The notes under the pieces: generated by a model
The model's input: only the letters and a program-made list of their open reading frames with translations
What the model was told of the DNA's origin: nothing
The model's database searches: none
Assembly: GCA_903944085.1 (NCBI GenBank)
Contig: CAJAQO010000073.1
Location: 1-35,336, forward strand
Source of the DNA: an uncultured Verrucomicrobia subdivision 3 bacterium
Lineage (GTDB): Bacteria > Verrucomicrobiota > Verrucomicrobiia > Limisphaerales > UBA11358
DNA: 35,336 nt
Direction: 5' to 3'
Program-made: the position numbers and the translations under genes
Shown here: piece after piece, positions 17,356 through 29,659 of the stretch
Position numbering within the stretch: the stretch's first letter is position 1
How the letters are laid out: every line of letters starts with the position of its first letter

Positions 17356-18450
17356 ATGGAACAACTTTTAGGAATTCTTCTCCTTGTCGCTGGCGGCTTC
17401 TCTGCTGCCAGCTTCTATGTGCCCTCGCATGCAGTCAAAAAGTGGTCATGGGAAACCTACTGGATCAGCCTCGGCTTGGTCGCGTGGCTTGTTATGCCGA
17501 CTTTGGCCGGGCTGATGACCACGCCAGACCTTTGGAGCATCCTGCGCCAGAGTCCAGTCAGGAGCATGGCTGGCGCGTATGGGTTCGGCGTTCTGTGGGG
17601 CTTCGGCGGCCTGATGTGCGGGCTGGGTCTGCGGTATTTGGGGCTCTCGCTCGGGCAGTCGGTTTCCCTCGGGGTCTGCTCGATTGTGGGCACACTCGTT
17701 CCAGCGGCCATTGACGGAAAGCTCGGTCTGCTGTTCAACACGCTGCCGGGCTTCGTCGTGCTGCTCGGGTTCCTCGTATGTCTGGCTGGCACTGCACTGT
17801 GCGGCTACGCCGGGATACGCAAGGAACGTTCGCTCACTGACGCCCAGAAAAAGGAGTCAGTTCAAGAGTTCGCCCTTGTCAAGGGAGTTACGATGGCCGT
17901 GCTGGGCGGAATCATGAGTGCGAGCATGGCGTTCGCCTTCACCGCCGGGGCGCCGATCGCCCGGTTGGCGGTTGGCGTCGGCACACCAGAAGTTTTCAAA
18001 AACATGCCCTTGCTGGTTTTTGCGCTGGCGGGTGGATTCACAACCAACTTTATCTCCACCATGATTATCACCACGAAGAAAAAGGCATTTGGTGATTACG
18101 TGGTTCGGCCCCGCAGCACATTGCTGCGCAATTATCTCCTTGCTGTTATCAGTGGCGTTCTCTGGTATGGGCAGTGGTTCAGCTTTGGCACGGGCACGAC
18201 GAAGCTGGGCGGGTATGGCTACGCAGGTTGGAGCATCTTCATGGCGGCCATCATTATTTTCAGCAATCTTTGGGGCATCTTGTTGAAAGAGTGGAAAGGT
18301 GTGGACGCGAAGACCCGGCTTTATTTGTGGCTGGGTATCATCGCGCTGGTAATTTCAGTGGTTATGATTGGGGTTGGAGACGGGCTCGCCAGAGCGGGTC
18401 CGCGCGAGCCGGTTGGCCACCATCCGATGCCCACCGAAGATGTTCGCTAG
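17356..18450 (+). CDS. L-rhamnose/proton symporter family (RhaT-type) sugar transporter
   Basis: The 364-residue membrane protein shows about ten hydrophobic helices and strong resemblance to E. coli RhaT: an N-terminal helix followed by VKKWSWETYW near residue 29, LRYLGLSLGQSVSLGVC near 95, IVGTLVP in the next helix and GYAGWS in the late part. The RhaT family belongs to the DMT superfamily and moves L-rhamnose or related sugars with protons. Substrate assignment to rhamnose is not safe, because no rhamnose catabolic enzymes (RhaA, RhaB, RhaD) are seen here. It lies directly between the mutarotase-like gene and the glycoside-hydrolase-like gene, so it likely imports the sugar released by the latter. 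Confidence 0.85.
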   Translation: MEQLLGILLLVAGGFSAASFYVPSHAVKKWSWETYWISLGLVAWLVMPTLAGLMTTPDLWSILRQSPVRSMAGAYGFGVLWGFGGLMCGLGLRYLGLSLGQSVSLGVCSIVGTLVPAAIDGKLGLLFNTLPGFVVLLGFLVCLAGTALCGYAGIRKERSLTDAQKKESVQEFALVKGVTMAVLGGIMSASMAFAFTAGAPIARLAVGVGTPEVFKNMPLLVFALAGGFTTNFISTMIITTKKKAFGDYVVRPRSTLLRNYLLAVISGVLWYGQWFSFGTGTTKLGGYGYAGWSIFMAAIIIFSNLWGILLKEWKGVDAKTRLYLWLGIIALVISVVMIGVGDGLARAGPREPVGHHPMPTEDVR

Positions 18451-18487: not shown

Positions 18488-20770
18488 ATGAACACATTTC
18501 AAAAGGTCTTTTATTTCGGATTAATTCTCTTTTTCTTGAGCTTTGTCGGGGCAGCCCCCGGTGAGGTTTCTGAGCAGCAGTTCGAAGCCAAGGCGCTTCC
18601 GGCACTCGATGTGGAAGAAAGCTATGATTTTCTTAGGCAGCAAACTGAAGGTCTGCCTCCGGCTCCTCGCGATCCCGGCATGAATCGCCACGTGGATGAA
18701 ATCGAAATTGACGCTGGTTGGAGAATCGTGATTCCCACCAATGCCTCGCTCGCCCTAGTCACCGCCAGCGAGGAACTACAACGCTTTCTTAAAGACGCCA
18801 TGCAGGTGCAGATTATGGTGGAACGCCCGGCGCAACTTGGTAACTGGCGTGACCGTCAGCAAATCATTGTCGTGGCGACCCGAGACAAATTGCCCGGCTA
18901 CGGCGAGTCCCTAAAAGCCTCGAAAGATTACCAGATTATTGTGTCGAGCAATACTGTTGTTGTATGCGGTTTTGACGACCGTGGAGCGATGTATGGCCTT
19001 TATAACTTGATCATGCGCTTCAAGCTGCGAGAAGGCCCCTATCTGCCAAAGAACCTGAGCACCGCTCGGCACAGCCTGTTTCAAGCGCGAATGACTCTTT
19101 CCGGACTGGGCTGGATGGACTGGCCAGACCGCTATCTGGCCACACTACCGTTGTATGGCTTCGATGCAATTCATTGTTCCATTTACCGCAATCCAAACAA
19201 CGCGCCCGGCCCTGAGCCTTATTGGGGTGATGACGTGATGCGCCGGCACAAGCCGGGTGAAATGAAAGATCTGCTGCGCCGCACGGCCCGGTTTGGCATC
19301 GATTGTTATGCGCCACTCCTTTATCAATACACCGGCACGCCGGAAAATATCGAAGGTTTGCGCAAGTTAGTTCGCGAAAACGTCACTGAATTTCCGGAAA
19401 TCCGCGGATACATACTGTTGACCGAAGGATTTTTCTACAAGAAGTGGTTTGGTGCCGGTGGACAAGGTAATGAGGATTTGCGCGCCTGGGTTCGCGAATG
19501 GTCCAAGGCCGTGGGTATTGCCGCCGACGAAGCCCACAAAATAAATCCCAAGGTGGAGATACTGCCTTGGGAATATAACATTGCCTTCAGCCCGGACCAA
19601 GTGGCGACGAAGGCCTATGTCATGACGCAGTTGCCGGAATCAACGATTCCGCTGCTGACTTTTGAAAATGGCAAGAGTTTTGAACTGGACGGGCAGAAAG
19701 GTCATCTGCGCGATTACGCCATCAATCAGGTCGGGCCGGCGGAGGTCACCCAGGCGCAGATTCTGGAGGCGCGCAAACGTAACTTTCCTGCCATCTATTC
19801 CAAGGCGGACACTTTCGCCAGTTGGCAATTCGGAACGTTTCCCTACTTGCCCTTCCCCTACCAGTGGTATGCACGTTATCAGGCGCTGGAGGAGTGGAAA
19901 ATTTCCGGGACGCTGGAGACCTGGAGCTACGGATTCAAGCCCAACTGGGTTGCCGAAATGCGTGCCTGGTATTCCTGGAGCGATGCGCCGCCGTTGGATG
20001 ATTTGTTACGCAAAATCGCCCGGCGTGAATTCGGTGCGGGTAACGAGGATGCCGTGCTCGCGGCTTGGAAGCACTTCAGCGAAGCGATCCAGGTTTATCC
20101 CGACACCGGCCCGAACTGGGGCAGTTGCAACGCGGTGGCGGCACCGATGTTTTTCTCCAAACCTAACCCGCGCGCCATGACGCTCAGCCATTCATGGTCG
20201 GATCAACAGCAGTGGAGCGGTCAGTCGCAACTGAATCCGGCGTGGCCTTATGTGCCCAGCCGCCTGATCTTCTGGCCGGACTTCACCAACAAACGCAACG
20301 CGGTCGATGGTTATATCCGATTTTTCACCATTCCCGTGTTTCAGAAATACCTGAAGCTGTCTGCCGACCGGATGGAGGAGGGACTTAAGTTCTATCGTCA
20401 GGCCGCGTTGAACGCGCCGGCGTCGAAGCAGAAGCTGGCATTTCGCGAAGTGCTGTTGGCCGAGCAGTTGCAGCGGATGATGCGCAGCGAGTATGCCATC
20501 ATCGAATTCGAAGGCCTGCGGCTGGCGCTGGCCAAGACCACTGTGGCGGCAGAGCAGCGGGATCTGTTGGAGAAGATGACCGGGTTGTTGCGCGAGGAAC
20601 GTGAACGCACCCAGTCATCATGGGAGACCGCGCGCCGGGATTCGCGCCTCGGCTATGAGTGGGAACAAGACTACATCTACACACCGGACATCATTGCAGA
20701 AAAACTCAAACTACTTGACGACACGTTGAACAACCAGATTCCAGCCTATCGGCGGAAGATTAACTTGTGA
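18488..20770 (+). CDS. Secreted glycoside-hydrolase-like protein (GH20/GH67-type N-terminal domain)
   Basis: Start 18488 is chosen because AGAGGA lies 8 bases upstream and MNTFQKVFYFGLILFFLSFV is a signal peptide; other in-frame ATGs are weaker. The 760-residue protein has an N-terminal zincin-like domain of the type preceding GH20 and GH67 catalytic barrels (about 60-185; ASEELQRFLKDAMQVQIMVE and GAMYGLYNLIMRF), then a large alpha/beta region that fits a TIM barrel (about 190-520; YILLTEGFF, ILPWEYN, PLLTFENGKSF). The C-terminal 200 residues are helical. Catalytic acidic residues cannot be assigned with confidence; Glu in WEY or TEG are candidates. It is not a close match to a family I can name. 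A polysaccharide or glycan fragment outside the cytoplasm is the probable substrate; the RhaT-type gene is just upstream. Confidence 0.65.
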   Translation: MNTFQKVFYFGLILFFLSFVGAAPGEVSEQQFEAKALPALDVEESYDFLRQQTEGLPPAPRDPGMNRHVDEIEIDAGWRIVIPTNASLALVTASEELQRFLKDAMQVQIMVERPAQLGNWRDRQQIIVVATRDKLPGYGESLKASKDYQIIVSSNTVVVCGFDDRGAMYGLYNLIMRFKLREGPYLPKNLSTARHSLFQARMTLSGLGWMDWPDRYLATLPLYGFDAIHCSIYRNPNNAPGPEPYWGDDVMRRHKPGEMKDLLRRTARFGIDCYAPLLYQYTGTPENIEGLRKLVRENVTEFPEIRGYILLTEGFFYKKWFGAGGQGNEDLRAWVREWSKAVGIAADEAHKINPKVEILPWEYNIAFSPDQVATKAYVMTQLPESTIPLLTFENGKSFELDGQKGHLRDYAINQVGPAEVTQAQILEARKRNFPAIYSKADTFASWQFGTFPYLPFPYQWYARYQALEEWKISGTLETWSYGFKPNWVAEMRAWYSWSDAPPLDDLLRKIARREFGAGNEDAVLAAWKHFSEAIQVYPDTGPNWGSCNAVAAPMFFSKPNPRAMTLSHSWSDQQQWSGQSQLNPAWPYVPSRLIFWPDFTNKRNAVDGYIRFFTIPVFQKYLKLSADRMEEGLKFYRQAALNAPASKQKLAFREVLLAEQLQRMMRSEYAIIEFEGLRLALAKTTVAAEQRDLLEKMTGLLREERERTQSSWETARRDSRLGYEWEQDYIYTPDIIAEKLKLLDDTLNNQIPAYRRKINL

Positions 20771-20844: not shown

Positions 20845-20943
20845 ATGAAAAAATACAATGTCAGTGTGATTGGCTACGGCTGGGTTGCGGGCGCGCATAT
20901 TGCCGACGAATCCGCCCGCACGGGCAAACCCGTCAAGTTGTGA
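20845..20943 (+). pseudogene. Gfo/Idh/MocA N-terminal stub (32 codons)
   Basis: ATG at 20845 encodes 32 residues beginning MKKYNVSVIGYGWVAGAH, the first strand and glycine-rich loop of a Gfo/Idh/MocA-type NAD(P)-binding domain, then stops. A full-length gene is about 350-400 residues, so this is the front end of a deleted gene. The stop TGA (20941-20943) overlaps the GTG start of the PIG-L gene by 3 bases, so the stub could still act as a coupled leader ORF. It is not the matching half of the fragment at 8478, since it lies 12 kb away and the flanking genes differ. Confidence 0.7.
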
Positions 20944-21773
20944 AATCCAGCAATCATCATTCATCAGTCCCGGTTGTGCTCGCCATCGCCGCTCATCCCG
21001 ACGACATCGAACTCGCCATGGCCGGCACGTTGTTGCTCTTGAAAGCGGTCGGCTGCGAGACCCACTATTTGAACGTGGCGAACGGCGGTTGCGGCAGCGT
21101 TCAGCACGATGCCAGGACATTGATTCGGATGCGGGCCGCCGAAGCCCAAAGCGCCGCCCAAATACTCGGCGCAACTTTTCACATGAGTCTGACGAATGAT
21201 TTGGAGATTTTTTACGACCTCAAAACATTGCGCCGGGTTGCTGCGGTGATCAGAGAGGTCAAGCCGGCCATTGTCCTGACGCATTCGCCGCAGGATTACA
21301 TGGAGGATCATAGTAACACCTGCCGGCTGGCCGTGACTGCCGCGTTCGCCCACGGAATGCCAAATTTTAAAACCACTCCTGCCCGGTCCGTTTTCCAAAA
21401 TGACGTGACCGTGTATCACTGCATGCCGCACGGATTCTGTGATGGTCTGCGGCGCGAAATCATTCCCGGCGCGTATGTGAACACTACGAGCGTCCAAAGA
21501 GCAAAACTGGCGGCGCTCGCCGAACACCGCAGCCAGCAGAACTGGCTGGACGCGAGCCAGGGCATGAACTCGTATCTCGCCGCCATGGAAAATATGTCGC
21601 GCGAAATGGGCCAGCGCTCGCATCGGTTCCAACACGCCGAAGGTTGGCGCCGGCATCTGCATTGGGGACTTTCCGCTCAGTCGGTTGATCCGCTCGCCGA
21701 TTTGCTGGGGAAAAATTATCTCATCAACAAAAAATACGAAACCGAATTAGGAAAACAAGTTTATGCCGCGTAA
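20940..21773 (+). CDS. PIG-L/LmbE family N-deacetylase
   Basis: GTG at 20940 gives 277 residues. The zinc motif AAHPDDIE at 17-24 (His19, Asp21, Asp22) and the third-ligand region [13 protein letters not shown] (His115 to His124) are those of zinc-dependent PIG-L/LmbE deacetylases, which remove acetyl groups from N-acetylglucosamine-type substrates. There is no signal peptide, so it works on cytosolic sugar or sugar-conjugate. Its end overlaps the next gene, a NagB-like protein, by 11 bases. The pair suggests deacetylation followed by deamination or isomerisation of an amino sugar. The start is set by the overlap with the stub stop; an internal start is possible. Confidence 0.88.
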
Positions 21774-22692
21774 AATCAGCTCTATCGCTCCCGATTGGTG
21801 GGATTACACCACCCTCGACGACTCCATCATCAAGGCCGCTGCCAAGCTGACGCCTGAGAAAATGCTTAAACTCTCTCGCCCTGGATTCAAGGTTGTTTTC
21901 TATGACACACTGGAGGAGTTCTATCTCGCCGAGGCACTCGAATACATCACGGCATGGCGTCAATCCACGGCTGACAATCCGGTTGGTATTTGCGGTCCCA
22001 TCGGGCCGACAGAACAATTGCCGCTTGTGGCGCGCATTGTCAACGACCTCGGCTTGAATCTTAAATGGGCGCATTTTTGGGGCATGGATGAATGGTTTTT
22101 GGATGGCCGCGAAGCACCGCCTACGCATGCACTTTCGTTTGAAAAGGCTGACCGGGAACTTTGCTTCAATCGTATCCGCAAGGAGCTTATCATGCCAGCG
22201 GCCAACCTGCATTTTCCCAAGGCCGATACGCGGGATTATCGGCAGAGTTGGGATAGTATCCGTTGCGCCGTCATGCAGGGCGGTCAGGGAGACACCAAGC
22301 ACTGGGCCTTCAACGATCCGCCCAAACGCGCAGGCAAATATAAAAACCAGCAGCCCAGCCCGGCGGAATATCGCAAGCTCTCGACGCGCGTTGTTGATTT
22401 GCATCCTACCACAATCGCGCAAAACGCGCGCACTTCCGGCGGCGGCAACATCACTTTGGTTCCCACCCGGGCCATCACTGTTGGCCCCGTTGAGACTTGG
22501 AAGGCGGAGAAGGTTTCCATCTGGCAGGCAGGCAAGCACGACAATCCGTTTGGCCAGCGCCTGACCACCTTAATGATTTCTGAAAAACTGGCTGACAGCG
22601 CCGTGCCCATGTCGCTCCTGGCCGATCATCCCAACGTTCAGTTCAACTTTTATCGCCAAGGTCTAGGCACCTGCGAAGTAGAGATGCATTAA
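21763..22692 (+). CDS. Divergent glucosamine-6-phosphate deaminase/isomerase (NagB-type)
   Basis: This 309-residue protein has the NagB/RpiA-like fold. The loop WGMDEWF (Asp109, Glu110) matches the MDEY motif, and [14 protein letters not shown] at 173-186 matches the canonical GGxGxDGHIAFNEP. The His (180) is kept, but the Asp of the NDGH motif (Asp141 in E. coli NagB) aligns with Thr178, with Asp177 one place upstream, and the Glu (148) is Asp185. Activity is therefore uncertain or the substrate differs. The normal GLATG-type phosphate loop is replaced by GPIGPTEQL near 74-82. It overlaps the PIG-L gene by 11 bases and is followed by a 175-base gap before the kinase. Confidence 0.78.
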
Positions 22693-22867
22693 GAACTAGG
22701 AGTATAAAGCAACTTAACGCTGAATCAAGCGGCACTCATAAATGGTCACTATTCTTCGATGGCGATTTTGGATTTGCTCTGGCGCGCGGTTGCGTGGATT
22801 GAACGAGGGGTGGCAGAGTTACTAAGAACGGATTACCATTGCGCATCCACTCCGCCTGCCAACGAGC

Positions 22868-23872
22868 ATGAATTCCTTTCCTAAAGATCTGGCTGCCCGC
22901 CTCCTCGCGGTTGCCGCGCCGTTGCCCTCGGTCACTATCGGTTTCGACGGTTTTATGGACGAGATGATTTCCCTGGTCGGCGAGCGCCAGAGCCTTGCCG
23001 AGTTTAAGGCCGTTCCGGACATCACCACCTTTGGTGAATTGATTACCAAAGCTGCGGGCCATAGCAGTCTGCGCGAAATTGTCGTCAACGGTGTGCATCC
23101 GGGCGGGTGCGCTATCAATATGGGGGATGGCCTGGCCGCGTTCGGTGTGCCCGTGGATGGCTTTGCGACGTTGGGTGAGCCAGTTCATCCCGCGTTTGCT
23201 TCCGTGATCGCCGGCTTTACTCCCGAACACGTGGCAACGATGCTGGCTGATGGAGCCTATGCCACGGCCTGTGCCACGGCGCGGGTAATCGCTTTGACTG
23301 ACTGGTCATTATATCCACACATGACGGCGGTCTGGCGTTTGTTGCAGGAAAAAGTCTACGCCCGGCTGGTTCATCGCCCGGCGTTTTTCATAGATTTGGT
23401 TGACCCGTCGAGCCGTTCGCCGGGCGATATTCGGGCGATGCTCGATACACTGTCCGCTTTCGCGGCAACCGGGGCGTTCACGCTCGGCCTGAATGGCAAT
23501 GAGGCCAATATTCTGGCGCGGCTGCTGGGGCTGCCGGCAGCGGGCACGGTTCCCGAATCAGTGCCACAACAGGCGCACTCCTTGCGCGAACGACTGGGCA
23601 TTGCGGAGGTGGTGATTCACCATATCAAGTTTGCGGCGGTGGCGAATGCCACCGAAACGGCCATCATGGATACCTTCTACTGTGCCAAGCCCAAGAAAAG
23701 CACGGGCGCTGGAGACCGGTTTAATGCTGGCTATTGTCTTGGCCTCCTCCTCAAGCTTGATGCTCGCTCACGTTTGGTCTGCGCCAACGCCAGTGCAGGG
23801 TTCTTTGTGCGCGAGGCCCGCAGCGCCAGCTTGCCTGAACTGGCTCAGTTCATCCTGACGCTATCCGCCTGA
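22868..23872 (+). CDS. PfkB family carbohydrate kinase
   Basis: The 334-residue protein shows both PfkB signatures: GGCAINMGDGLAAFG around residue 78 (the sugar-side motif) and STGAGDRFNAGY at 278-289, where Asp283 is the catalytic base and GAGD the anion hole. It would phosphorylate a sugar or sugar phosphate in the cytosol using ATP. The exact substrate is unknown; a ketose derived from the deaminase-like step is a reasonable guess. Its stop overlaps the next start by one base, so the two are translated together. Confidence 0.88.
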   Translation: MNSFPKDLAARLLAVAAPLPSVTIGFDGFMDEMISLVGERQSLAEFKAVPDITTFGELITKAAGHSSLREIVVNGVHPGGCAINMGDGLAAFGVPVDGFATLGEPVHPAFASVIAGFTPEHVATMLADGAYATACATARVIALTDWSLYPHMTAVWRLLQEKVYARLVHRPAFFIDLVDPSSRSPGDIRAMLDTLSAFAATGAFTLGLNGNEANILARLLGLPAAGTVPESVPQQAHSLRERLGIAEVVIHHIKFAAVANATETAIMDTFYCAKPKKSTGAGDRFNAGYCLGLLLKLDARSRLVCANASAGFFVREARSASLPELAQFILTLSA

Positions 23873-25029
23873 TGAAGACCAGTCTGAAAACCAAACTTGG
23901 CCAGCCCTCGTGGCGGGTTGCGACACGCGAAGTCGAGGCATTCGTGACTGAAACTGGCGGGCATCTCGGCCCGGTGACATTTCACCTCGGCGGAAAGAAA
24001 ATCCAACCGTTCTCCGTTGCACCGTGGGCGGAGGAAAAAACCGAGCCGTCCCTGCCGGCCCTTTTGAAGGTGTTGCGCGGGGATTTCTTCTGTCTGCCGT
24101 TTGGCGGCAATGTCACGCCGTTTCACGGTGAAAAACATCCGGTCCATGGCGAAACCGCCAATGGGCGGTGGCGGCTCGAATCCGCTGAAGCTGGCTGCCT
24201 GCGCTTGAGCCTGACCACCAAAATCCGCGCCGGTCGCGTGGACAAATACGTCTCACTTCGACCCGGCCAGACGGCCGTTTATCAGCGCCACGTCATCAGC
24301 GGCATGAGTGGGTTGATGAGCCTGGGCCACCACGCGATGTTGAAATTTCCCGACTCGCCCGGCAGCGGTCTGGTTTCCACCAGTCGTTTCAAGCGCGGCG
24401 ACGTTGTGCCGGTGCCGCTGGAAAATCCCGCCGCCGGCGGTTACTCCTGCCTGCGGCCAGGAGGCAAATTCACATCGCTGACCAAAGTGCCTTTGGCGAA
24501 CGGCGGTTTCACGGACTTGAGCCTTTATCCGGCGCGGCGGGGCTTTGAGGACATCGTCATGCTGTCCAGCGATGAACGGCAGCCGTTTGCGTGGACTGCG
24601 GTGACTTTTGGGGCGGCCGGCTGCGTGTGGTTTGCGTTGAAAGACCCGCGAATCTTGCGACAGACAGTTTTCTGGCTGTCCAACGGCGGCCGGCATTATC
24701 CTCCGTGGAACGGACGGCATGTCAACGTGCTGGGGTTGGCGGAAGTGACGGCCGATTTCCATTACGGCCTAGCGGAGTCGGCGAAGAAAAATCCGCTCGT
24801 CACAGCCGGTGGCATCACTCGCCTCACGCTGGATCCGCACCAACCGTTGACGGTCAATTACATCATGGCCGTTGCCCCCATACCCAAAGGCTTTGACCGT
24901 GTCGCTGCCATCATCCCGGCGGCGGATGGCCAATCGGTCCGGCTTGTTTCCGGGAACGGACGCAAAATCCGCGTTTCGGTTGATCTCAATTTCCTGGGGA
25001 TTGAAAACAAACGTGAACCTGTTTTGTAA
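23872..25029 (+). CDS. Unknown protein, beta-rich, possibly mutarotase-like sugar-binding
   Basis: TGATG overlap couples it to the kinase. The 385 residues have no signal peptide or membrane segment. Strand-like repeats and segments such as FTDLSLYPARRGFEDIVML and LSNGGRHYPPWNGRHVNVLG suggest an aldose-epimerase-like beta sandwich. A distant relation to the 16400 protein is possible from general character, not from a clear alignment. I cannot assign a reaction. Location between the sugar kinase and the aldolase suggests a step on the same sugar intermediate. Confidence 0.55.
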   Translation: MKTSLKTKLGQPSWRVATREVEAFVTETGGHLGPVTFHLGGKKIQPFSVAPWAEEKTEPSLPALLKVLRGDFFCLPFGGNVTPFHGEKHPVHGETANGRWRLESAEAGCLRLSLTTKIRAGRVDKYVSLRPGQTAVYQRHVISGMSGLMSLGHHAMLKFPDSPGSGLVSTSRFKRGDVVPVPLENPAAGGYSCLRPGGKFTSLTKVPLANGGFTDLSLYPARRGFEDIVMLSSDERQPFAWTAVTFGAAGCVWFALKDPRILRQTVFWLSNGGRHYPPWNGRHVNVLGLAEVTADFHYGLAESAKKNPLVTAGGITRLTLDPHQPLTVNYIMAVAPIPKGFDRVAAIIPAADGQSVRLVSGNGRKIRVSVDLNFLGIENKREPVL

Positions 25030-25037
25030 TCTAATTT

Positions 25038-26294
25038 ATGATCCGTTCCCTTGACCAAAAGCTTGCCGCCATTCGCGCGCACCCGCACTCGACCCGCGAC
25101 TTCATCCTCGCCGACGCCAAGGATGCTGACATGGCGTTCGGCGTGCGCGCTCCGGGACCGCGCAGTTATCTCGCCAAACATGGGGCGCGGCCGGCGCAAT
25201 TCTCGCCGGAAGTCTGGACGCGTATGGAATACGGCTACCGCAACCTGCCCGAATTTCTCGATCTCATTCGCGAGGTGACGCATCAGGGGCTGGTGGACAT
25301 CATGCTGATGTCGGCCTATGTCAACGAGCAGCTCACCATCAAAGAAGGCTTGTTCAAGGACTCCCAGATTACGCCCGCCTGCCGCGCCAACGACACGACC
25401 GATGTTTGGGCCGTGCGCCACGGCTGCTATACGCGCGAACCGTCGCAGCCATTCCGGTCGGCGACCATTGACCACATTCAGTGCGGCGAGATCGAATGCG
25501 ACCGCAGCCTAAACGGGATTCCTGGCGCGAACCTCGGCTTGTATTCGATGACCTTCGTCAATGAACTCGATCAGGATCGCGAGGCGTTTCTCTGGTATAA
25601 GGAATTCCGCGAAGAGGCGGAACGCAAAGGCTTCCGACATTTCCTTGAAGTTTTTGATCCGAACGTCAACAGCGGCATCGCGCCGGAAAAGCTGGGCGAA
25701 TTCATCAACGACAACATCATCCGCACCCTGGCCGGCGTGCCGGAGGCGGGGCGGCCTGATTTCCTGAAAATTGTTTATCACGGGCCGAGGGCGATGGAGG
25801 AACTGGCGCAGTATGATCCGAACTTGGTGGTCGGCATTCTTGGCGGTAGCGCCGGGACGACTTACGACGCGTTCAAGCTGATTCATGACTCGCAAAAATA
25901 CGGTGCCCGGGTGGCTCTATACGGCCGCAAGATCAACCACGCAGAGCATCAGCTCGCGTTCATCGAGATGCTGCGGCTGATCACGGATGGAAAAATCACG
26001 CCGGAGGAAGCCGTGCGGGCCTATCATGGCGTATTGCAGGTTAAAGGCATCCAACCGCACCGTTCGCTGGAGGAGGATTTGAAAACCACCGATCAGGCGA
26101 TGAGCTACGACGGGAGTGCCACCCGCCGTGCCACGGTGGAGATTCGCAATAATCCGCTGGCGAGAACCAAGTTGGAAGCTACTGGCAAAGCAACGGGGTC
26201 AAGAGATTGGCCCAAACGCGACAACGGCACACCTGACTTTGAGCGAATGACTTCAGCGCAACGTTATGCCTATGACTCGGAGCGTTTGAATTAG
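25038..26294 (+). CDS. Class I aldolase-fold protein (DeoC/LacD-like)
   Basis: The 418-residue protein has an (alpha/beta) barrel pattern with a likely Schiff-base lysine, Lys244 in FLKIVYHG, and a phosphate-binding type strand VGILGGSAGTTYD at 265-277, followed by YGARVALYGRKINHAEHQ. These match the class I aldolase group that includes DeoC, LacD and related sugar-phosphate aldolases, although the N-terminal 80 residues and the C-terminal 100 are extra. The reaction is probably cleavage of a phosphorylated ketose into a triose phosphate and an aldehyde. It sits 8 bases after the previous gene and 10 before the GlcD gene, in one transcript. Confidence 0.72.
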   Translation: MIRSLDQKLAAIRAHPHSTRDFILADAKDADMAFGVRAPGPRSYLAKHGARPAQFSPEVWTRMEYGYRNLPEFLDLIREVTHQGLVDIMLMSAYVNEQLTIKEGLFKDSQITPACRANDTTDVWAVRHGCYTREPSQPFRSATIDHIQCGEIECDRSLNGIPGANLGLYSMTFVNELDQDREAFLWYKEFREEAERKGFRHFLEVFDPNVNSGIAPEKLGEFINDNIIRTLAGVPEAGRPDFLKIVYHGPRAMEELAQYDPNLVVGILGGSAGTTYDAFKLIHDSQKYGARVALYGRKINHAEHQLAFIEMLRLITDGKITPEEAVRAYHGVLQVKGIQPHRSLEEDLKTTDQAMSYDGSATRRATVEIRNNPLARTKLEATGKATGSRDWPKRDNGTPDFERMTSAQRYAYDSERLN

Positions 26295-26304
26295 TTGATC
26301 CATC

Positions 26305-27690
26305 ATGTCCTTGTCACCTGATTCTCTGGCCGTGCTGCGCGACATCCTTGGTGAGCCGAATGTGCTCACTCAGCCAGAGGATGTGATTCCGTATTCTTTT
26401 GACGGAACGGCGGCACTCAAGCAGCCTGCGGGTTGTGTCGTGTTTCCCCAAAATGCCCCACAGGTCGCGCGGGTGATCAAGTTCGCACGTCAAAATCATC
26501 TGCCGGTGGTTTCGCGCGGATCGGGCACCGGATTAAGCGGGGGCAGTGTGCCCGTGGCGAATGGTATCGTGTTGTGTCTGGTCAAGCTGGATCGCGTGCT
26601 CCAGCTCGACGAAAAGAATCTCACAATTCTGGTTGAGGCGGGAGTTGTCACCCAGAAAGTCGCCGACCACGCGGCCGCCGCAGGGCTGCTGTATCCGCCG
26701 GATCCGGGTTCGATGAAGATTTCCACCATCGGCGGGAATGTGGCCGAAAACTCCGGTGGCCTGCGCGGTCTAAAGTATGGCGTCACCCGCGATTATGTGA
26801 TGGGAATGGAAGTGGTGCTGGCCGATGGTCAAGTCGTCTGGCTTGGCAACAAGTGCGTGAAGGATGTGGCAGGTTACTCGATGAAAGACGTGTTCATCGG
26901 CTCGGAGGGAACGCTGGGTATTATCACTCAAGTTCTCCTTAAGCTGGTGCCCAAGCCGGCGGCCAAGAAAACTTTATTGGCAACCTTTGTCCGTATGGAT
27001 GCTGCGGCAGAAGCAGTTTCCGCCATCATCGCGGCCAAGATCATTCCCTGCACACTGGAGTTTCTGGACAAGATCACCATCCAGTGCGTGGAAGAATACG
27101 CCCGCATCGGGCTGCCGCTGAACGCCGAGGCCATGTTGCTCATGGAAACGGATGGTCATCCGGCGGTGGTGGAAGAAGAGGCCCGTCGCATGGAGGAGAT
27201 CGCGCGGCAACATGGCGCAGAGTCCGTGACCGTGGCGAAATCCGCCGAGGAATCCGCGCGGCTAGCCACCGCCCGGCGGTCTGCTTTTTCGGCGCTGGCC
27301 CGCATGGCACCCACAACTATTTTAGAGGATGCGACCGTGCCGCGCAGTGAACTGGCGCGGATGATCCGGTTCATTCAGGAAGTCGGCGAGCATCACCGGT
27401 TGCGCATCGGCACCTTTGGGCACATGGGCGATGGTAACCTGCACCCCACCTTCCTCACCGACGAACGAAATTTCGAAGAGATGGAGCGGGTGGAACATGC
27501 CATGAAAGCGATCTTTGATTTTGCGATTAAACTGGGTGGCACAGTCACGGGTGAACACGGCGTTGGGCTGGCCAAAAAGCGATTTCTGCCGGGAGCGATT
27601 GGCGAGGGGAGCCTGGACTTGATGCGGCAGCTCAAACGCACACTTGATCCCGATAATATTTTGAACCCGGGAAAGATTTTTGACCCGTGA
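26305..27690 (+). CDS. glcD: FAD-linked 2-hydroxyacid dehydrogenase subunit (GlcD type)
   Basis: The 461-residue protein is a VAO/PCMH-type flavoprotein: RGSGTGLSGGSVP near residue 71 is the FAD pyrophosphate-binding loop, PPDPGSMKISTIGGNVAENSGG follows near 131, and GHMGDGNLHPTF plus TGEHGVGLAKK are the C-terminal hallmarks of GlcD/D-lactate dehydrogenases. It would oxidise glycolate, D-lactate or a similar 2-hydroxyacid and pass electrons to the adjacent Fe-S protein. The next gene starts inside its stop (GTGA), so the two subunits are made together. No GlcE homologue is visible, so the complex may be two-subunit. Confidence 0.92.
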   Translation: MSLSPDSLAVLRDILGEPNVLTQPEDVIPYSFDGTAALKQPAGCVVFPQNAPQVARVIKFARQNHLPVVSRGSGTGLSGGSVPVANGIVLCLVKLDRVLQLDEKNLTILVEAGVVTQKVADHAAAAGLLYPPDPGSMKISTIGGNVAENSGGLRGLKYGVTRDYVMGMEVVLADGQVVWLGNKCVKDVAGYSMKDVFIGSEGTLGIITQVLLKLVPKPAAKKTLLATFVRMDAAAEAVSAIIAAKIIPCTLEFLDKITIQCVEEYARIGLPLNAEAMLLMETDGHPAVVEEEARRMEEIARQHGAESVTVAKSAEESARLATARRSAFSALARMAPTTILEDATVPRSELARMIRFIQEVGEHHRLRIGTFGHMGDGNLHPTFLTDERNFEEMERVEHAMKAIFDFAIKLGGTVTGEHGVGLAKKRFLPGAIGEGSLDLMRQLKRTLDPDNILNPGKIFDP

Positions 27691-29045
27691 GCGCTAAACC
27701 ATTTCATCTCGGGCAGCTCAATTATTCCGTGCTACAGCAATGCATGCACTGCGGGATGTGCCTGCCCACCTGCCCTACCTACGACGCGACCAAGCTTGAG
27801 CGGCACAGTCCGCGCGGGCGGATTTCACTGATGCGGGCGCTGGCTGACGGGGACTTGGAACTAGGATCGGAGTTCGGCAAGGAAATGTATTACTGCCTCG
27901 GCTGCCTTGCGTGCGAGACGGCCTGTCCAGCGGGAGTAAATTATGCCGCGATGTTCGAAGCGGCGCGGGCCGACATCGAAACCAGCGGCGTGCTGGCCAA
28001 ACCTAAACGCAACTTTGTCCGATGGTTCACCGTGAAGTTTATTTTCATCCGACCCCGGTTACTGCGACGATTGGGGCAACTATTATATCTTTATCAGGTC
28101 AGTGGCTTGCAATCATTAGCACGAAAGCTACGGCTTACCGCCTTGCTGCCTCAAAACTTGCGTGAGCTTGAACCATTAACCCCCACGGTGCGCCGCTATT
28201 TTTCCGACGCGCTCATCCGCGAAGTGGAAACCCCTACGCCGCGCTGTCATCGTGTCGGCCTGTTGACTGGCTGCATCCAGGACTTGATTTATTCCGAAAT
28301 CAACCGTGACACGGCCGATGTGTTGCTGGCACACGGATGTGAGGTGTTCACACCGCGGTTGCAATCCTGTTGCGGTTCCCTCCACGCCCACAACGGGGAA
28401 CTGGCACTGGCCCAGGAGATGGCCCGACGAAATATTCTCGCCATTGAGGGATGCGCCGGCCCACTGGAAGCGCTGGACGCGATCATCAGCAATGCCGGCG
28501 GCTGTGGCTCGCACCTGAAGAACTACGCACATCTGTTGCACGACGATCTCGTCTTCGCCGCCCGCGCGGCAACCTGGTCGCGCAAATTGAAGGACATCCA
28601 CGAATGGCTGGCGGAAATTGGCCTGCAACGTCCGACTTGCCCGCCACAACCACAGCGCGTCACTTATCACGAATCCTGCCACCTCTGCCATGGGCAGAAG
28701 GTAATTCATGCGCCGCGTGAAGTTTTGCGTGCCATTCCCGGGCTGGAAATCGTTGAGTTGCCTGAATCCAACTGGTGCTGCGGTAGTGCGGGCATATACA
28801 ATATCACGCAACCCGAGATGGCGGGAAGACTGTTGGATCGTAAACTTGCGAATCTTCAACGCACCGGTGTCTCCGTGGTGGCCTCGGCCAATCCCGGTTG
28901 TTCCGTGCAACTGGAAGCCGGTTTGCGTCAGGCAGCGAGGGACGTGCGCGTCGTCCATCCCATCTCACTCCTCGCCGAGGCGTTTCGGCGGACGAACCCG
29001 AGAACGGAAGTAAATCGCAAATCAAGGTGTCCAGACGACTTGTGA
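27687..29045 (+). CDS. glcF: Iron-sulfur subunit of 2-hydroxyacid dehydrogenase (GlcF type)
   Basis: GTG at 27687 overlaps the previous stop by 4 bases. The 452 residues hold two 4Fe-4S ferredoxin motifs, CMHCGMCLPTCP near residue 17 and CLGCLACETACP near 70, and two CCG-type cysteine clusters, SCCGSLHAHN near 229 and WCCGSAGIYN near 364. This is the GlcF/heterodisulfide-reductase-like layout that accepts electrons from the FAD subunit and hands them to the quinone pool. The last 20 residues are polar and probably disordered. It is 17 bases from the isomerase gene. Confidence 0.92.
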   Translation: MSAKPFHLGQLNYSVLQQCMHCGMCLPTCPTYDATKLERHSPRGRISLMRALADGDLELGSEFGKEMYYCLGCLACETACPAGVNYAAMFEAARADIETSGVLAKPKRNFVRWFTVKFIFIRPRLLRRLGQLLYLYQVSGLQSLARKLRLTALLPQNLRELEPLTPTVRRYFSDALIREVETPTPRCHRVGLLTGCIQDLIYSEINRDTADVLLAHGCEVFTPRLQSCCGSLHAHNGELALAQEMARRNILAIEGCAGPLEALDAIISNAGGCGSHLKNYAHLLHDDLVFAARAATWSRKLKDIHEWLAEIGLQRPTCPPQPQRVTYHESCHLCHGQKVIHAPREVLRAIPGLEIVELPESNWCCGSAGIYNITQPEMAGRLLDRKLANLQRTGVSVVASANPGCSVQLEAGLRQAARDVRVVHPISLLAEAFRRTNPRTEVNRKSRCPDDL

Positions 29046-29062
29046 ATATCGAAGGATTAGTT

Positions 29063-29659
29063 ATGAACGAATACATTAAATTCAGTCTTCTCGAAGCCCA
29101 GTCCGCCCTTGCGGATCTTTTAGCTCATGAGGCAACCATAACAGATATAGAACGTGCTGCGGCCAAACTGATTGAGGTATTCGAGAAGAGGGGGCGTGTT
29201 TACTCTTGTGGCAATGGTGGGTCTATGTGCGACGCGATGCACTTTGCTGAGGAACTTACCGGGCGATACCGTCATGACCGGGCCGCATTGGCGGCCACAG
29301 CCATCAGTGATTCTGGACACATGAGTTGTATCGGAAACGACTTGGGCTATGAACAAGTATTTTCCCGCTACATTGAGGCGCATGGTCGCGAAGGCGATTG
29401 CTTACTCGCGCTCAGCACCAGTGGAACGAGCAAGAATATTGTTCGTGCCGCTCGCGCCGCAAAATCGCTTGGATTGAGTGTCATCGTGCTTTCCGGCAAG
29501 CGAAGTGTCGAGCTTGAATCCCTGAGTGATGTATATGTCTGCACGCCAGGAGGCACTTTCGCGGATCGAGTGCAGGAATTGCATATCAAGGTATTGCACA
29601 TACTCATCGAACTTATCGAACGACACTTCTTCCCCGAGAATTACGCTGCAAACAGATAA
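29063..29659 (+). CDS. GmhA-like SIS-domain sugar-phosphate isomerase
   Basis: The 198-residue protein starts at 29063, supported by AAGGA 6 bases upstream; an in-frame start 165 bases upstream would overlap glcF. It resembles phosphoheptose isomerase (GmhA) in length and motifs: SCGNGGSMCDAMHFAEELTG at 48-67 binds the sugar phosphate, LSTSGTSKNI is the SIS phosphate loop, and ELHIKVLHILIELIE is the family's final helix. GmhA converts sedoheptulose-7-phosphate to heptose-7-phosphate for LPS. No other heptose gene is nearby, so a role in the sugar pathway of the neighbours, or a lone LPS gene, is possible. Confidence 0.85.
   Translation: MNEYIKFSLLEAQSALADLLAHEATITDIERAAAKLIEVFEKRGRVYSCGNGGSMCDAMHFAEELTGRYRHDRAALAATAISDSGHMSCIGNDLGYEQVFSRYIEAHGREGDCLLALSTSGTSKNIVRAARAAKSLGLSVIVLSGKRSVELESLSDVYVCTPGGTFADRVQELHIKVLHILIELIERHFFPENYAANR

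Follow-up and report, generated by a model that had tools for sequence, protein, structure and literature searches.

Analysis of the window, that is, the whole 35,336-nucleotide stretch studied here (contig CAJAQO010000073.1 of assembly GCA_903944085.1, from an uncultured Verrucomicrobia subdivision 3 bacterium), revealed a run of sugar-catabolic genes that includes a class I-type aldolase with a conserved C-terminal tail. This aldolase shares common descent with aldolases encoded in bacterial microcompartment (BMC) operons of related bacteria, and the genome carries a BMC operon of the PVM type on another contig. We give an even chance to the reading that the run is a satellite operon of a PVM-type BMC, which would feed ketose 1-phosphates to a second aldolase targeted to the microcompartment. 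A preliminary description of this DNA had proposed an eight-gene catabolic operon for a modified amino sugar; its pathway idea was partly right, and it missed the C-terminal tail of the aldolase and the microcompartment context. The aldolase and the two parts of its C terminus are positioned as follows.

25038 to 26294, + strand: predicted class I-type ketose-phosphate aldolase with C-terminal tail (predicted model, fold matches, K244)
26118 to 26201, + strand: variable linker of the aldolase, residues 361 to 388 (low conservation; low model confidence at 355 to 388)
26202 to 26291, + strand: conserved tail of the aldolase, residues 389 to 418, candidate encapsulation peptide (conservation, predicted helix)

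The aldolase had no match in Pfam, one weak match in NCBIfam (PRK07226, 18.7 bits against a cut-off of 241), and no sequence match in the Protein Data Bank (PDB) at E values up to 1. An AlphaFold model generated from 53 sequences (pLDDT 69.9, pTM 0.70) predicted a barrel-like structure with low confidence at residues 355 to 388 and a helix at residues 406 to 417. Foldseek analysis of this model revealed ADH synthase (4.8e-8), LacD, and LsrF as the best matches and an archaeal fructose-bisphosphate (FBP) aldolase lower down. VIA-align placed YihT at the top (Z 19.3), effectively tied with ADH synthase, LsrF, LacD, and FBP aldolases at Z values of 18 to 19. Residue K244 is invariant in the 53 rows and pairs, in a weak alignment (probability 1.5), with K203 of LsrF, which we take to be the position of the Schiff-base lysine. 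According to the predicted model, the protein has the class I (Schiff-base), dihydroxyacetone phosphate (DHAP)-type TIM-barrel ketose-phosphate aldolase fold, and these matches bear out the earlier designation of the gene as an aldolase.

The mean column conservation of the aldolase was 0.84 to 0.87 over residues 1 to 360, 0.50 and 0.34 in the linker at residues 361 to 388 (0.34 for residues 373 to 388), and 0.64 over residues 389 to 418. BMC encapsulation peptides take this form, a short conserved helix behind a linker of variable sequence, and, judged by its sequence, the conserved helical tail of the aldolase looks like one of them. The tail was also considered as a tag on other enzymes and rejected in this role, since 141 of the 142 matches in a pattern scan of the loci lay in aldolase frames. 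A tail-only match in genome G071 had nothing recognizable at its locus. The one remaining match of the pattern scan is in locus L091 (11314 to 12279), where a copy of the aldolase tail occurs about 1 kb downstream, behind a gene on the other strand that by eye looks like MazF type; it is not a second tagged enzyme. Aldolases with a different linker-plus-helix C terminus are encoded in L206 (6247 to 7506) and L207 (6814 to 8127). Of these two copies, one belongs to a PVM operon; the other is a satellite linked to a kinase, and the BMC genes of its genome are located elsewhere. The tag may have been replaced.

In relatives from the same order, the aldolase gene closes a BMC operon, following genes for PduL, shell proteins, acetate kinase, aldehyde dehydrogenase, class II aldolase, and often lactate dehydrogenase. 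These BMC operons are of the PVM (Planctomycetes-Verrucomicrobia; fucose/rhamnose) type. This type is known for L-fucose and L-rhamnose and is marked by the class II aldolase, which is the only aldolase named, with no class I enzyme, in the parts of the PVM literature covered here (PMC4207490, PMC8217296, PMC8857213, among others). Two sets of aldolase loci were compared. The 76 chosen loci were selected by hand and not at random, and some genomes contribute several; the 80 named loci were the top-ranking 80 among 547, their genomes overlap with the former set, and their titles are partly odd (two "Proteobacteria," one "Klebsiella pneumoniae," and several "Akkermansia muciniphila" metagenome bins). 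Neighbors were called by phmmer on mechanical open reading frames (ORFs), and many contigs end near the gene. A locus was counted as BMC-linked when a shell-type gene lay within 10 kb or a class II aldolase gene within 4 kb; 63 of the 80 named and 31 of the 76 chosen loci were BMC-linked under this rule, which also counts L192 and L242, though their aldolases are tail-less. The PVM operon of the window genome, on contig C79, contains PduL, shell genes, AckA, aldehyde dehydrogenase, and class II aldolase, and no copy of the class I-type aldolase was present in the stretch of C79 that was read. No shell gene or class II aldolase was found among the window genes searched, and the BMC matches listed for the genome are those on C79.

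The distribution of the aldolase is patchy: it is present in 49 of 97 relatives, in 67 of 286 genomes of the class, and in 17 of the 288 genomes of a phylum-wide sample (four of them outside the class). BMC shell genes were detected in 46 of the 49 relatives with the aldolase versus 19 of the 48 without it, as tallied from separate profile matches for the aldolase and for BMC genes. Among the class genomes, BMC genes were present in 32 of 33 with a tailed aldolase, in 23 of 34 in which the tail was unmatched, and in 46 of 219 without the aldolase; presence of the tail was judged by the last model position matched, and two of the 101 BMC-positive genomes lie below the family cut-off. The sole genome with a tailed aldolase and no BMC genes carries a contig-edge fragment. 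These tail counts include one copy that is a contig-edge fragment (G078) and one broken by a stop (G096), and a second tail/BMC test moved G100, G175, and G213, the first two of which carry other tails though they were counted as tail-less.

In a tree of 64 aldolase rows computed on the barrel, the 11 copies from the window genus form one clade (100/99), which together with nine rows from BMC loci makes a supported set of 20 (100/96). The tree was rooted at its midpoint, L204 and L244 have long branches, and one BMC-locus row (L207) falls among tail-less rows with low support. Since the genus clade nests among copies from BMC operons, the satellite copies of the window genus most likely came from a BMC-operon gene, left the operon, and kept the tail; they now stand next to a PfkB-type kinase gene. 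A second tailed aldolase of the window genome, 85% identical to the first, is encoded on contig C60 (in the region 9827 to 19106 of L003), where its gene overlaps a PfkB kinase gene by 4 bases; the neighbors there, identified by eye, are an MFS (major facilitator superfamily) sugar transporter, a Gfo-type gene, a NahK-like gene, and a LysR-type regulator.

The other features of the locus in the window are the following.

17356 to 18450, + strand: RhaT-type sugar/proton symporter, candidate uptake gene (Pfam 2e-57)
20845 to 20943, + strand: relict of a Gfo/Idh/MocA oxidoreductase gene, 32 codons (by sequence; first part and last codons kept, middle gone)
20940 to 21773, + strand: PIG-L/LmbE-type deacetylase (Pfam 3.5e-24)
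21763 to 22692, + strand: NagB-like protein, candidate deaminating isomerase (hhalign to Escherichia coli NagB; TIGR00502 under cut-off)
22868 to 23872, + strand: PfkB kinase of the prokaryotic ketohexokinase family PF25270 (Pfam 9.9e-39)
23872 to 25029, + strand: 385-residue protein, here called Epi, no family assigned, guessed to be a mutarotase
26305 to 27690, + strand: GlcD-like FAD subunit of a 2-hydroxyacid dehydrogenase (TIGR00387, 507 bits, cut-off 567.9)
27687 to 29045, + strand: GlcF-like iron-sulfur subunit (PRK11274, 255 bits, cut-off 333)
29063 to 29659, + strand: GmhA-like SIS isomerase (PRK00414, 241.8 bits, cut-off 265), membership in the unit not supported; the mechanical ORF begins upstream at 28898

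In the proposed mechanism, a sugar would be converted to a ketose, in the window probably by PIG-L deacetylation and deaminating isomerization by the NagB-like protein and in sister loci by a relative of D-lyxose isomerase. The ketohexokinase-type kinase would then form the ketose 1-phosphate. The class I aldolase would enter the microcompartment by its C-terminal tail and split the ketose 1-phosphate into DHAP and a short 2-hydroxyaldehyde, which would become a 2-hydroxyacid, with gain of ATP, through enzymes that the PVM operon encodes (aldehyde dehydrogenase, PduL, and acetate kinase). GlcDF would oxidize the resulting acid (lactate, glycolate, or glycerate). A wider reading, which we offer tentatively and with more doubt than belief, is that many Verrucomicrobiota PVM BMCs are two-aldolase organelles, with the class II fuculose/rhamnulose 1-phosphate aldolase and a so far unrecognized class I enzyme that opens these organelles to other ketose 1-phosphates, and that the window operon is an amino-sugar inlet. 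An unphosphorylated acetamido sugar would be deacetylated and deaminated there before it reached the kinase, the enclosed aldolase, and GlcDF; a 2-acetamido-2,6-dideoxyhexose, in which phosphorylation at C6 is impossible, would be an example.

The eight ORFs of the preliminary description lie on the + strand where it had placed them, and the overlaps of 1 to 11 bases are real: 11 bases between the PIG-L and NagB-like genes, 1 between the kinase and Epi genes, and 4 between the GlcD and GlcF genes. The spacers are 175 bases between the NagB-like and kinase genes, 8 between Epi and the aldolase, 10 between the aldolase and GlcD, and 17 between GlcF and the SIS gene. The argument for an operon from the common direction of the eight genes falls away, because every main gene of the window has the + orientation. 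None of the loci read besides the window holds all eight genes, and a comparison of gene order in relatives revealed recurrent kinase-aldolase pairs and PIG-L/NagB-like/aldolase/kinase runs while the eight genes are not kept together. The SIS gene had no recurrent link to the aldolase among the loci read, in which only two weak SIS matches on the opposite strand were found (L058, L156), and its membership in the pathway lacks support. The operon is preceded by genes for a DUF6786 protein, RhaT, and a GH67N-like protein and followed by genes for a PHP protein and a GH27-type alpha-galactosidase. The product of the gene between RhaT and the operon (18488 to 20770) is a large, secreted-looking protein with only a marginal match to the GH67 N-terminal domain. 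Epi had no match in Pfam or NCBIfam, and its profile had none in the PDB; the Epi family occurs near the aldolase in 6 of the 76 chosen loci. A relationship of Epi to DUF4432, hinted at by the position of the latter in L192, was not supported by BLAST, which gave no match between the two.

The PIG-L protein matched its Pfam family with 86.2 bits (cut-off 28.2). Its AHPDD motif and residues H19, D22, and H124 are invariant in 10 rows, and AHPDD with H124 is presumably the metal-site motif. The nearest solved structure is a diacetylchitobiose deacetylase (2.8e-21), closely followed by an LmbE-related protein, BshB1, and a hydratase; because the solved relatives include a hydratase, deacetylation is not certain. 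The NagB-like protein stayed below the cut-off of TIGR00502 (1.2e-5, 24.7 bits, cut-off 236.9) and aligned to E. coli NagB by hhalign with an E value of 2e-5 and a probability of 77. In its family, the equivalents of NagB residues D72, H143, and R172 are kept, D stands for E148, D141 is absent, and K208 faces an invariant D, at which the alignment ends; we take these NagB positions to be active-site residues. The pattern gives only a hint that the substrate may be unphosphorylated and later phosphorylated at C1. A true NagB is encoded on contig C113 of the window genome (291 bits), so ordinary deamination of glucosamine 6-phosphate needs no NagB-like gene.

The NagB-like gene is present in 40 of the 97 relatives, yet in only 2 of 49 members of the genus, one being the window genome itself and the other a weak match. 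A PIG-L gene accompanies it in 7 of the 14 longer loci from the order and in 13 of the 17 from the class (L221, with a weak match, excluded). L170 and L223 each have an intact Gfo-type gene next to the NagB-like gene, separated from it in L170 by PIG-L; in L223 and L226, intact neighbors of NagB-like genes match the Gfo relict of the window at both of its ends.

These data leave room for an explanation in which two modules merely adjoin, PIG-L and the NagB-like gene being a conserved pair of their own and the kinase, Epi, aldolase, and GlcDF genes a plain ketose route (for fructose, xylulose, mannose, or lyxose). We consider it unlikely, though it deserves serious attention. It would account for the 175-base gap before the kinase gene and for locus L028 of the same genus, in which isomerase, kinase, Epi, and aldolase genes occur without the PIG-L/NagB-like pair. 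The NagB-like gene neighbors the aldolase gene in just 4 of the 33 class genomes with both; yet about 0.07 such pairs are expected by chance, a post hoc comparison in which two of the four pairs come from one family. PIG-L, NagB-like, aldolase, and kinase genes also form one run in L195, L213, and L237 (genomes G289, G344, and G425), with a Gfo gene interposed in L195. These genomes belong to family f83 in another order and make up three of the seven in that order's sample in which NagB-like gene and aldolase co-occur. Remnants of the same association are present in G316, from a further family, where the C-terminal parts of PIG-L and of the NagB-like protein abut next to aldolase and kinase genes and the part between them is absent (L214, 4213 to 4720). 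The earlier claim that the deacetylase and NagB-like genes are tied to the aldolase and kinase is carried by the three f83 genomes and weakened by the low share of class genomes in which the genes are neighbors.

The coupling of the aldolase to a PfkB kinase, claimed from the window, recurred in the relatives. The window kinase matched PF25270 with 134 bits (cut-off 35), and a PfkB-type kinase gene lies within 4 kb of the aldolase gene in 37 of the 76 chosen loci, including 36 of the 45 without a BMC link; the kinases of L060 and L061 are just beyond this limit. A relative of D-lyxose isomerase is encoded near the aldolase in 20 of the 76 loci (PF07385 in L028; phmmer matches, mostly near 100 bits, in the rest). 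In L028, this isomerase takes the place that the PIG-L/NagB-like pair occupies in the window in front of kinase, Epi, and aldolase, and across the loci the isomerase slot is more often filled by the D-lyxose isomerase relative than by PIG-L/NagB-like genes. Locus L192 (3880 to 14271, genome G126) contains LutABC-type genes, two PfkB-type kinase genes, DUF4432, DeoR, a tail-less aldolase, a soluble aldehyde dehydrogenase, and a lyxose isomerase relative, all in a single run. It looks like a cytosolic version of the pathway, which may lead from lactaldehyde to pyruvate and end in lactate oxidation. In L060 (4005 to 10435), L061 (3632 to 10271), and L203 (6715 to 11830), a tail-less aldolase gene lies beside genes for aldehyde dehydrogenase, an APH-type kinase, and enolase, a set that would suit conversion of glyceraldehyde to phosphoenolpyruvate via glycerate. 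With the additional isomerase and PfkB kinase genes of L060 and L061, these two loci look like a complete route from mannose/fructose to phosphoenolpyruvate. A 2-hydroxyaldehyde as the aldolase product would fit the tail-less relatives, which adjoin a soluble aldehyde dehydrogenase together with LutABC, or an aldehyde dehydrogenase with the APH-type kinase and enolase. Genome G289 encodes four tail-less copies of the aldolase in four settings (L195, L196, L197, L198); a class II FBP-aldolase-type gene adjoins two of the four.

Several observations weigh against a satellite operon that feeds a microcompartment. The aldolase model is of middling confidence, and its profile alignment is weak with LsrF and unusable with FbaB and YihT. 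The kinase lacks a 34-residue segment that is present in 10 of 10 other rows (102 bases, in frame, after base 23209); it may work without the segment, or the locus may be decaying, or the assembly may be wrong at this position. The window contains neither a lyxose-type isomerase gene nor an aldehyde dehydrogenase gene of its own. GlcD lies at most 4 kb from the aldolase in 2 of the 76 chosen and 1 of the 80 named loci. GlcDF adjoins the aldolase only in the window and in L024, the only other locus with the order kinase-aldolase-GlcD-GlcF, and L118 has one divergent GlcD. A search for GlcDEF among the window genes found GlcD and GlcF only, both below equivalog cut-offs, and no glcE, and the earlier inclusion of GlcDF in the pathway is seldom matched in the relatives. 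Tail-less aldolases are also encoded near PVM genes in L192 and L242, and the BMC genes in class genomes without a matched tail loosen the association further. Finally, most tailed copies form one clade, so the tail and BMC counts are not independent; for this reason, our confidence in the satellite reading was held at even and that in the two-aldolase, amino-sugar reading at the tentative level stated above.

A cytosolic operon without a microcompartment role, whose tail would serve another purpose such as oligomer or partner binding, appears improbable. The operon does lie outside the BMC locus, and tail-less relatives adjoin kinases without BMC linkage; against this, the satellite copies descend from BMC-operon genes and have kept the tail, and all but one of the class genomes with a tailed copy have BMC genes. 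We attach little credence to an ordinary glycolytic or tagatose-type bisphosphate aldolase present here by chance. LacD and FBP aldolases fit the fold about as well as ketose 1-phosphate enzymes do, and a GlpX-type fructose-bisphosphatase gene stands beside the aldolase gene in L024 and L063, while the patchy distribution, the recurrent ketohexokinase-type and isomerase neighbors, and the place of the gene in PVM operons argue against it. Very little credence is also given to a decaying or misassembled cluster. The kinase gap, the two surviving ends of the Gfo gene, the PfkB-aldolase pair on C60 as a possible substitute, an assembly of 335 contigs with 4.67% contamination, and the lack of the NagB-like gene in the 48 other genus members searched, one weak match excepted, would fit decay or misassembly; the other frames are open and conserved, however, and the aldolase shares 90% identity with its counterparts in G005 and G048 from the genus. 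Least probable of all is a sulfo-sugar route with YihT/YihV logic, for which YihT ranks first and sulfohexulose-1-phosphate aldolase fifth by VIA-align Z and the order of epimerase, isomerase, PfkB kinase, and class I aldolase is similar, since these Z values are tied with those of LacD, LsrF, and FBP aldolases, sequence comparison with YihT was uninformative, and no sulfonate gene was recognized among the window genes searched.

PVM organelles with two aldolases, possibly with amino sugars as one inlet, would be new. Such organelles are interpreted as serving fucose and rhamnose breakdown, and ecological studies draw conclusions on diet from them; under the two-aldolase reading, their substrate range would be wider and modular. 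The aldolase, which belongs to no Pfam family and closes many PVM operons of this group, is a candidate cargo, and related bacteria offer a natural comparison, since their versions of this enzyme occur with and without the tail. The window operon would add a candidate amino-sugar route through ketose 1-phosphates that bypasses fructose 6-phosphate.

The closest known systems include the PVM microcompartment itself. The gene content of the relatives' operons (PduL, shell proteins, acetate kinase, aldehyde dehydrogenase, class II aldolase, frequently lactate dehydrogenase) agrees with the parts of the published accounts covered here (PMC4207490, PMC8217296, PMC8857213), and the proposed aldehyde-to-acid logic is the same. 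The difference is an additional, class I-type aldolase that bears a candidate tag of its own and in the window genus lies outside the operon with a kinase. In the ketohexokinase pathway of Haloarcula hispanica, as far as the portion of the source covered here describes it, a PF25270 kinase converts fructose to fructose 1-phosphate and a class I aldolase takes part (PMC11519228). Here, too, the PF25270 kinase stands beside a class I aldolase, as in the window; in the haloarchaeal route, however, a second kinase, absent from the window, makes the 1,6-bisphosphate before cleavage, and the same portion of the source describes no microcompartment link in haloarchaea (PMC11519228). Mammalian fructolysis by ketohexokinase and aldolase B, as outlined there (PMC11519228), resembles the proposed direct split of a ketose 1-phosphate into DHAP and an aldehyde. 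Its enzymes are of unrelated ancestry as far as compared, and it involves neither an organelle nor a deacetylase.

The E. coli sulfoglycolytic Embden-Meyerhof-Parnas (sulfo-EMP) pathway (yihR, yihS, yihT, yihV) likewise combines a mutarotase, an isomerase, a PfkB kinase, and a class I aldolase of similar fold, whereas its isomerase belongs to other families and the aldolases have no usable sequence similarity. The sulfo-EMP aldolase is not known to carry a BMC tail. Archaeal chitin catabolism, with its diacetylchitobiose deacetylase, shares with the window a PIG-L-family deacetylase coupled to sugar catabolism. The archaeal route proceeds through glucosamine 6-phosphate, whereas in the window a ketohexokinase-type kinase and then the aldolase follow.

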